Source: Botryosphaeria dothidea (taxonomy: Eukaryota > Ascomycota > Dothideomycetes > Botryosphaeriales > Botryosphaeriaceae). From it: DNA of 64,000 nt. A program made the position numbers and the translations under genes. The stretch is from the NCBI GenBank assembly GCA_011503125.2, contig WWBZ02000016.1:1364001-1428000 (forward strand). Direction: 5' to 3'. The notes below the pieces were generated by a model. It was not told the DNA's origin. It did no database searches and was given only the letters and a program-made list of their open reading frames with translations. Positions 32,209 to 34,498 of the stretch are shown piece after piece. Position 1 is the first letter of the stretch; each line of letters begins with the position of its first letter.

Positions 32209-33534
32209 AACACGCCGCCAGGCTGCCCACAATCAAACCTATAGCTATCAGATGGTACGGTGGCGGCAAGCCACGGATCTACTCCTTGGCACATGGGCGT
32301 TTCCAGGTTGCATAGGGCGGCAAGTCAAACCTGGCATGGAAAAACGGTAAGCGACTCTGTCGGAGCAATCTATTCGAGATCTGCAAATTTGTCCCTGGCG
32401 TTTGTGAGACATCGTCCATGCGGTAGAAGCAGTTTAGACGCCTATTAGCCTGCTCCGCTCCGCAAAGGGAAAGAGAAGAGATCTAAGGTTGAGCGGCAAA
32501 CACGGCGCCTACAAAATCGCCTGTGCTGCTCGTCGCCAAGAGAGATATCGGCCTGCGTGGGTACGCATGCTTGTACATTTTTTTTGGCCCTTTTCCGGAG
32601 CTTGCAGGCGATCTTTGCAAAAAAGAAACAGGAGGACGGCAGCAGTACATTCAGGCTCGCTGTCAAGAGTTTTGCCGCGATCGAGATTGAAGGGACATGG
32701 AGCGCAATGCCACTTGAGTCACGGCAAAATAGCAGCGACCGCGGGACTGCGTGTTTGGGCTGGATACATCCGTCCAGGGGCTTCCCGCGCACTGCGAAAC
32801 AGGGAGACAGGATGTAGAGAGCAGTTTAGAGGGGAATGGCGGACGAGGTCATGTTAGACACGGCCAATCCGGCTAAGCTCGAGTCATCAAACGCCCGGCC
32901 TCGGCGGCAACGCTTCACAAAGCTTGCGGAGAAAAGCAGCGCCCCCTTCATCAGCCGCCCAGGCACCAAGGATCGTGTGAGGGTCACCTGGCGTTCTTTT
33001 ATTCCTTGTGCATCCGGCTTGGCCACTACAAGAAGCGCCCTTCCCCACAGAACGCGACATAGCACATTCTCTTGGCCTTATTCTTTCTGTCCCGCGAATG
33101 CGGCTCGGTCCGTAGCCGATGTCTGTGGATTTGTTCATGTCGACAAGCCAGCCGTTTCTCCGCCACTAACAATGGATGGCGTGAGCACTGCTGATGGCCC
33201 ACTCTTGTTCGGACACTTTTTGAGATTCCGTGTAGGCGACCGGCCCGTCGTAAAACGCACGGAGAGACTCAGATTGCCACCTCTCTCGGATCACAGATTG
33301 CACACATACTGCCCGAGCGCTCCACCGATTTCGCTGTTCTTTTGGCCCGCATCTCTGGGTGTGGTCTGTGAGGTGGTCTTCTACTGTTAAAAGCTGTGTC
33401 TCTCCGGAAGTGCATTTCCTCCCCACGGAAGAAGACGTTTGCTCTCTCAAGTCGGCAAAATAAAATATATGCGCGCAAGGCATTGAGAGCAGCTCAACAC
33501 CACATTTCCGCCCCATGACAGACCATTCAAAAGC

Positions 33535-33540
33535 AAAAAA
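33535..33540 (-). terminator. RNA polymerase III T-run terminator of tRNA-Leu
   Basis: Six T residues on the minus strand begin 12 nt after the tRNA 3' end, as expected for Pol III termination. Confidence 0.7.
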
Positions 33541-33595
33541 GAGTGCAATATTGAGAAGAGTGGGACTCGAACCCACGAAGGTTTCCCAACTAGTA

Positions 33596-33625
33596 AACCC
33601 TGTCTTCGGGACTCTTTTCAGAAGA
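33596..33625 (-). other. Canonical tRNA intron (after position 37)
   Basis: 30-nt insert one base 3' of the anticodon, the place cut by the tRNA splicing endonuclease. It contains a CTG that can pair with the CAG anticodon and an internal GTCTTC/GAAGAC stem that starts at its 5' edge. Confidence 0.75.
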
Positions 33626-33637
33626 CCTGAAACTAGC

Positions 33638-33692
33638 CTGTAATATTGTTAGACGGTGGTTGAGTATAGCTGAGTACTGCAGTCAAACTTAC
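33638..33692 (-). other. Spliceosomal-type intron inside the tRNA gene
   Basis: 55-nt insert between tRNA positions 25 and 26. It starts GTAAGTTTGAC, has CTAAC eleven nt before its last base region and ends ATTACAG, i.e. the donor, branch site and acceptor consensus of the mRNA introns in this same window, and it has their size. Removing it restores a G26 and a perfect five-pair anticodon stem. Confidence 0.7.
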
Positions 33693-33717
33693 GCCATAAC
33701 CGCTCGGCCATCTTCCC

Positions 33718-34498
33718 ATTTTTGAGGCTATTGCTCGCTTGCAAACGCTATGATCAAGAAGTAGAACCAATCCCCTGAATCGCACCTACAAGGCGCGTTC
33801 ATGACCTCTTTGCAAAACAGAAGGTCCAACTGTAATTCTTGACTAGAGAGTTGAATCCTCACAGCGTTTTGTGTGTGTTGCCGTCCCGTTGTTGCTAAAT
33901 GTTTAAGTGACGGTTAATTCTACCTCTTCGGGAATTAAAAGGCAAAATTTGGCCACATTCCTGATAAGACCCAACAAGGACCCACTAGTGCAAGATCTCT
34001 AGTCAAATTCATGGCCGCCGACCCCTGCGCCCCAACAAGTCGTGACGGACTCACCACGGCGTCACCGCTCTGACTGAAGGTGGGCTCCGAATCATGTAGT
34101 CTTTCGAGCATTGCCACTCCAAGACTCACCGATGCTGCAGACCCGCTCGATTCGAAATACAAGCTCAGCAATTGAGTTGACTCGCTGCACACCCCCTGGA
34201 ACAGGACAATGCGGCCATCGCAAAGTCGTCGCGACGTTCTGGAAATCCCGTTGCTTGCTGGTGTTGGCGCGATGCCCTCTATTGTATCGGCCTTCCATTA
34301 CACCGCTCCTGCCAATCGAACTTTCATGGATGCCGTCATGTACGCCGGTGACTCTGCTGCGCCGAGAAAACCCACCATCACTTGAAAGGTGTTGCTGCGA
34401 ATCTCAAGTTCATCGGACAGAGTCATTGTAGGATAACATTAACTATAGAGTTATTTCATACACTTTTTTCTTTCATCACTTGCATTACGTCGTAACCC
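33718..34498. other. tRNA upstream region and GH3 3' region
   Basis: About 780 bp, A+T-rich near both ends. It carries the upstream region of the tRNA and the 3' end of the GH3 gene. No gene seen. Confidence 0.4.

Follow-up and report, generated by a model that had tools for sequence, protein, structure and literature searches.

Apparent mRNA-type introns beside ordinary tRNA introns in nuclear tRNA genes of Botryosphaeria dothidea

How could a tRNA gene that is interrupted twice, once at the ordinary site and once by an insert bearing the signals of an mRNA intron, give rise to a tRNA? The question is raised by a gene in a stretch of 64,000 nucleotides of Botryosphaeria dothidea DNA, here called the window, which lies at C12:1364001-1428000 in a 51.7-Mb assembly of 78 contigs. 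The parts of the gene, in positions of the window, are as follows.

33552-33717, minus strand: tRNA-Leu(CAG) gene with two inserts (Rfam RF00005, sequence, ARAGORN on the insert-free form)
33693-33717, minus strand: 5' exon with the acceptor 5' strand and the D arm, tRNA positions 1-25 (sequence, paralog comparison)
33700-33710, minus strand: A box TGGCCGAGCGG (sequence reading)
33638-33692, minus strand: 55-nt mRNA-type intron, GTAAGT..CTAAC..ACAG, at 25/26 (same site in the paralogs L010 and L011)
33626-33637, minus strand: exon with G26, the anticodon stem 5' strand and the loop up to G37 (sequence, paralogs)
33596-33625, minus strand: 30-nt canonical tRNA intron at 37/38 (identical in L010)
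33552-33595, minus strand: 3' exon with T38, the anticodon stem 3' strand, variable arm, T arm, acceptor 3' strand and A73 (sequence, paralogs)
33563-33573 (C12:1397563-1397573), minus strand: perfect B box GGTTCGAGTCC (B-box pattern listing)
33535-33540, minus strand: T6 run, likely Pol III terminator (sequence)

The extent and the parts that the initial annotation had assigned to this gene proved correct, both by Rfam match and by reading of the strand. The Rfam tRNA model aligns to 33552-33717 (minus strand) with 35.3 bits over model positions 1-71 of 71, leaving a large local gap, and ARAGORN recognizes an 81-nt tRNA-Leu(cag) when both inserts are taken out, which bears out the claim that a tRNA becomes readable once the 30-nt and 55-nt inserts leave. 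By sequence reading, the acceptor stem is GGGAAGA/TCTTCTC, the anticodon stem CTAGT/ACTAG, and the loop TTCAGGT gives the anticodon CAG. The gene displays the cloverleaf, the anticodon CAG, the long variable arm, A73, the A and B boxes and the T run of a nuclear tRNA-Leu(CAG), the cloverleaf being assigned from ARAGORN and the reading of the stems; minimum-energy folds were also computed for the unspliced, half-spliced and mature RNA, and the best fold of the mature form has no normal T arm. Interrupted as it stands, the gene received no call in an ARAGORN scan with the bacterial code, was named Leu(tag) when long introns were allowed, and had nothing listed at its position in a default Rfam scan of the whole window. 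Group I and group II intron families are absent among the Rfam matches up to E 10 in 33400-33850, so self-splicing of the insert is not supported.

Is the insert at 25/26 peculiar to this copy? With the window gene as query only three places are found, namely the gene itself, L010 (C3:777198) and L011 (C8:497668), and both inserts occupy identical positions in all three Leu(CAG) genes. Outside the 25/26 insert the window gene and L010 are equal at 111/111 bases, canonical intron included, whereas within it 39 of 56 aligned columns are equal; the 3-kb flanks of the two genes display no further similarity at E <1. In L011 the exons are altered and the insert measures 59 nt. The initial annotation had named an insert-free tRNA-Leu(CAG) elsewhere in the genome as evidence against its reading. 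We looked for one and found none: the uninterrupted junction occurs at 0 places with up to two mismatches, in a search blind to copies with more than two mismatches or outside the assembly, as against the three interrupted genes. The interrupted junction has exact matches at these three Leu loci and one-mismatch matches at four places, one of which (L048, C5:295156) is an uninterrupted tRNA gene; the remaining three may be chance matches, given that a reversed control pattern occurs at 7 places. Two patterns used to look for these genes in a viral contig collection both matched nothing, and a genome contig collection gave 4 pattern matches, all in bacterial records and at about the chance level for 18 fixed bases.

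The same anatomy recurs in other tRNA families. Eleven of the 57 nuclear tRNA genes read carry an mRNA-type insert (9/55 in a first set that excluded scan hits >260 nt, and two tRNA-Trp genes), a proportion that does not represent a genome-wide rate, the genes having been chosen by Rfam score, B-box patterns and neighbourhood. The pattern GGTTCRANTCC occurs at 262 places, 100 of them among the matches listed, and part of those were read; GGTTCGATTCC occurs at 45 places, of which 22 were read, and five of the twelve read as short stretches (L131, L132, L137, L139, L140) hold no tRNA.

Four genes for initiator tRNA-Met were found among 17 places with GGATCGAAACC. Three of them (C1:751582, C1:6143290 and C47:1330625) have an insert at 24/25, the fourth (L096, C29:539543) has none, and a GT..AG cut in the three interrupted genes produces exactly the junction of the uninterrupted one. 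Both tRNA-Ala(AGC) genes (C1:2077207 and C69:885202) carry an insert at 19/20 together with a canonical intron. No uninterrupted Ala(AGC) junction was found with up to two mismatches, the single two-mismatch match being the 3' exon and insert end of the C69 gene. An alternative donor four bases upstream, GTGGGT, also passes the splice-aware scan described below; GTAGGT is preferred, since with this donor the D loop retains its two Gs. By sequence reading these genes have the G3:U70 pair, which we take to be the mark of tRNA-Ala. Of two tRNA-His(GTG) genes, L135 has an insert at 8/9 and L134 has none.

The tRNA-Trp(CCA) case was predicted, in that the places were picked before the branch site and the acceptor had been seen; CTAAT and ATAG were then found where expected. 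Three of five two-mismatch places were fetched, C12:1117974 and C16:17256 being left out of the reading, and these gave two Trp genes and one place without a tRNA (L146, C36:2097826). The two genes, L145 and L147 on contigs C36 and C78, have an insert at 24/25, and the GT..AG cut yields the junction of the uninterrupted paralog L066. Since they are identical over the stretch fetched and the two contigs share other tRNA genes, they are treated as a single independent case. tRNA or U6 genes with equal scores lie at a near-constant offset on C36 and C78 (C36:2715622/C78:1829880, C36:3028000/C78:2142282), as they do on C3 and C12 (C3:1474133/C12:3173622, C3:1445739/C12:3145221), which suggests that sizeable parts of the assembly are duplicated or allelic.

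An intron at 37/38 is present in the interrupted Leu, Ala, His and Trp genes as well. An insert at the same site in all three Leu genes, together with the same anatomy in four more tRNA families, is more than chance would produce. The interrupted genes apparently form a class, comprising the Leu, initiator Met, Ala, His and Trp families and one U6 gene; in the initiator Met, His and Trp families, which have uninterrupted paralogs, removal of the insert may not be essential.

What is the nature of these inserts? The ten distinct ones in tRNA genes are 54-59 nt long, start with GTAAG or GTAGG and end with AG. All ten have the GTRNG donor of a U2-type intron, and all ten a branch site CTRAY (CTAAC, CTAAT or CTGAC) whose A lies 11-12 nt from the end, compared with 13 in the U6 intron. 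Among 2,000,000 random stretches of 54-59 nt from loci of the same genome, 28 carry all of these signals, a number to be taken as a guide and not as a strict p-value, since the signals were defined from the inserts themselves and some of the stretches may be true introns. The interiors behave differently from the signals. Within families their identity is 0.47-0.59 in six pairs and 0.71 in the Ala pair, against a mean of 0.48 and a 95% point of 0.575 for shuffled interiors. Five of the seven pairs fall below that point; the two above it are the Leu pair of the window gene and L010 (0.59) and the Ala pair (0.71), and the drift of the interiors is incomplete. The 5' splice site, the branch site and the 3' splice site appear to have been kept while the interiors largely drifted, and that copies so diverged still have their splice signals suggests that removal is under selection. 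At each insert boundary in the nine genes tested, two cuts yield the same product, and GT..AG is one of the two.

The sites of insertion (25/26, 24/25, 19/20 and 8/9) all precede the anticodon; none falls in the B box and none is the canonical 37/38. By sequence reading, only the His insert touches the A box, separating T8 from it. These positions would preserve the internal Pol III promoter, which may be the cause of their distribution. A T run of at least four follows within 40 nt 3' of eight of nine interrupted genes, the stretch of L136 covering 13 nt there and the Trp genes standing outside the count. The absence of runs longer than three Ts within the inserts was also considered as a sign of Pol III transcription and set aside as uninformative, since most of the mRNA-intron sample is alike in this: runs of four or more occur in 2/15 strict-motif genomic candidates and in 0/5 introns of the Sla2 gene of the window.

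The introns of protein genes in the window offer a comparison for the inserts. The Sla2 open reading frame matches a protein of Macrophomina phaseolina at 98% identity in an alignment that covers 85% of the query. Five introns of the Sla2 gene, excluding a further one near the C-terminus, were verified by translation against that protein, with one difference in the first 125 residues. They measure 52-83 nt, have the donors GTGCGT (three), GTAAGC and GTATGC, and four of the five contain CTGAC or CTCAC 10-15 nt from the end. The resemblance in size and spacing to neighbouring mRNA introns, on which the initial annotation had remarked, is confirmed (54-59 against 52-83 nt in length, 11-12 against 10-15 nt for the branch site), and the donors of the tRNA inserts are stronger than the looser Sla2 donors (GTGCGT in 3/5). 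The GH3 protein encoded in the window has 85% identity to that of M. phaseolina, 83% to that of Diplodia seriata and 98% to a metagenome protein; the proteins of the window thus indicate the Botryosphaeriaceae (Dothideomycetes). Another comparison is provided by U6: one of three U6 genes, L046 (C18:304005), has an intron with GTAAGC..CTAAC..GCAG, and L044 and L045 are uninterrupted. The U6 intron itself contains a B-box-like GTTCGATCCCGG (L046 around 1501-1599).

Scans with the splice motifs gave a consistent separation from controls. In 357,302 bases, made up of the window and partly overlapping loci, strict motifs yielded 22 candidates on the forward sequence against 7 on the reversed sequence. 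In the splice-aware scan, 43 candidates with the real motifs led to 36 ARAGORN hits, a number that includes overlapping loci and alternative cuts, none of them outside the Leu, initiator Met, Ala and His genes. The 28 decoys led to three hits, with one artefact within the L010 gene. The names given were correct for Met, Ala and His, and L011 was called Leu(cag) for the 59-nt cut; they were wrong for longer cuts, and for the window gene and L010 because the second intron remains in place.

We consider it very likely, from these sequence comparisons, that the inserts are U2-type introns which interrupt Pol III tRNA genes and are taken out by the spliceosome; in the Leu, Ala, His and Trp genes they stand beside introns at 37/38. 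The window gene would be a working nuclear tRNA-Leu(CAG), transcribed by Pol III through its internal A and B boxes. Its 30-nt intron at 37/38 would be an ordinary one, handled by the SEN endonuclease and tRNA ligase, while the 55-nt intron at 25/26 would be recognized by the GTAAGT donor, the CTAAC branch site and the ACAG acceptor and excised by the spliceosome, which acts likewise on the U6 precursor of fission yeast. The D-arm intron presumably leaves before the 37/38 intron, an order inferred from the contact that Sen54 makes with the D arm of its substrates, as the available part of PMC4090602 has it. The initial annotation had read the gene as having an mRNA-type intron in addition to the canonical one, and this reading gains support from the splice signals kept in paralogs, the drifted interiors and the lack of a shared bulge-helix-bulge; one precursor may well need both splicing machineries. 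More broadly, it is probable that the spliceosome serves as a tRNA-maturation enzyme in this fungal lineage. Its introns would occupy four sites near the A box in five or more nuclear tRNA families, among them three of the four initiator genes and all Leu(CAG) and Ala(AGC) genes found. A number of codons, and a large share of the supply of initiator tRNA, would then depend on the spliceosome, and two independent splicing machineries would act on one Pol III transcript.

Could the inserts be removed, or tolerated, in some other manner? They could be ectopic tRNA introns cut by a SEN endonuclease with relaxed site choice, an alternative already considered in the initial annotation. Precedents exist, in that Cyanidioschyzon has ectopic and multiple tRNA introns and a cryptomonad nucleomorph has ectopic ones, many without a defined bulge-helix-bulge, according to the available part of PMC3978253; SEN, moreover, would be expected to work on these Leu, Ala, His and Trp precursors, given their 37/38 introns. 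In the canonical register, however, the nine genes tested, which leave out Trp, form only 1-3 of the 4 central pairs of a bulge-helix-bulge and share no structure, with His (3/4) the weakest exclusion; all four pairs appear in three genes only, when 25 registers are tried. Nor does relaxed site choice agree with the retention of GT, CTRAY and AG at fixed spacing in diverged paralogs, and we regard it as highly unlikely. It is still less probable that the interrupted copies have lost their function, or are losing it, and that decoding falls to other tRNAs. The initiator Met, His and Trp families do have an uninterrupted paralog, and a Leu(UAG) tRNA could read CTG. Some fungal genomes also hold tRNA-derived repeats, as stated in the accessible text of PMC8450103. 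Decay, however, is at odds with exons kept at 111/111 bases in two Leu genes while their inserts drift, with T runs within 40 nt after 8/9 genes, with splice signals kept in diverged copies, and with the failure to find an uninterrupted Leu(CAG) or Ala(AGC) junction at up to two mismatches.

Splicing might also be occasional, or confined to Pol II read-through transcripts, the inserts acting chiefly as regulators of tRNA supply; we consider this the least probable of these alternatives. Nothing specific speaks for regulation, although the mixture of interrupted and uninterrupted initiator Met, His and Trp genes would permit a regulated output. The Leu(CAG) and Ala(AGC) genes found all carry an insert, so removal must be routine if these genes are used, and the gene-internal A and B boxes, together with the T runs, indicate Pol III. 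As to the origin of the inserts, a recently mobile intron (introner) was considered and rejected, as the mean identity of interiors between families is 0.51 against 0.48 when shuffled and the Leu query matched only Leu loci; a multi-copy intron family of recent origin is not seen, and an old spread may have taken place.

How do the putative spliceosomal introns of tRNA genes compare with known systems? Short mRNA-type introns in a Pol III-transcribed small RNA are found in the U6 genes of S. pombe and other fungi (PMC8917221, in the part available), and in this the tRNA inserts resemble them; the host here, however, is a tRNA with a splicing route of its own, several families are involved, and the intron lies towards the 5' end, in the first third of the tRNA. 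Spliceosomal introns also interrupt the U3 snoRNA genes of most Pezizomycotina examined in PMC5832005, another instance of such an intron in a small structured RNA. According to the accessible part of that paper, frequent interruption by introns is known among small structured RNAs for U3 and U6 alone, and tRNAs are absent from its list. With regard to tRNA introns proper, the window gene has a canonical 37/38 SEN intron of 30 nt, from which the 55-nt insert at 25/26 differs in its site, in its GT, CTAAC and AG signals and in that no bulge-helix-bulge was found. The tRNAscan-SE 2.0 paper, in the part available, limits eukaryotic tRNA genes to one intron (PMC8450103). Multiple introns and introns away from 37/38 are shared with Cyanidioschyzon, nucleomorphs and archaea, whose introns, as far as the accessible text of PMC3978253 goes, are of the bulge-helix-bulge or endonuclease type, whereas the features kept here are spliceosomal signals. 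The initial annotation knew of no described case, and likewise our search of open PMC text, with subscription papers, preprints and GtRNAdb outside its reach, turned up no account of tRNA genes with spliceosomal introns. As far as seen, then, both the type of intron and its hosting by Pol III genes are already known, and tRNA genes as hosts are apparently new.

In the textbook view tRNA splicing does not involve the spliceosome, and a 2026 review states this explicitly (PMC13149111, in the part available). If our reading is true, initiator, Leu, Ala, His and Trp tRNAs that depend on the spliceosome would break this rule, and translation capacity would be tied to spliceosome activity. The genes would also constitute a natural test of spliceosome action on Pol III transcripts beyond U6, and would present the puzzle of how introns settle in genes that hardly tolerate a retained copy. 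On a practical level, genes of this kind will escape tRNA finders or be given a wrong name, as happened with ARAGORN and the default Rfam scan at the window gene.

Several further features of tRNA genes and their relatives were observed in the course of the analysis. Four tRNA-Gly(GCC) genes (L067, L072, L073 and L133), 118-137 nt in length, have long 37/38 introns that are dissimilar and exons that are alike. A tRNA-Lys(CTT)-like copy whose T arm is partly missing lies in L075 around 255-325 (C58:2826308). Around 1400-1540 in L012, L013, L031 and L034 there is a repeat with GGTTCGAATCC, preceded at a short distance by a second GGTTCGAG and followed by a T run; it may derive from a tRNA or be a Pol III repeat. 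Organelle-type tRNA genes are clustered on contigs C14 (145,619 bases) and C26 (17,350 bases), of which the former is probably the mitochondrial genome and the latter a piece of that genome.
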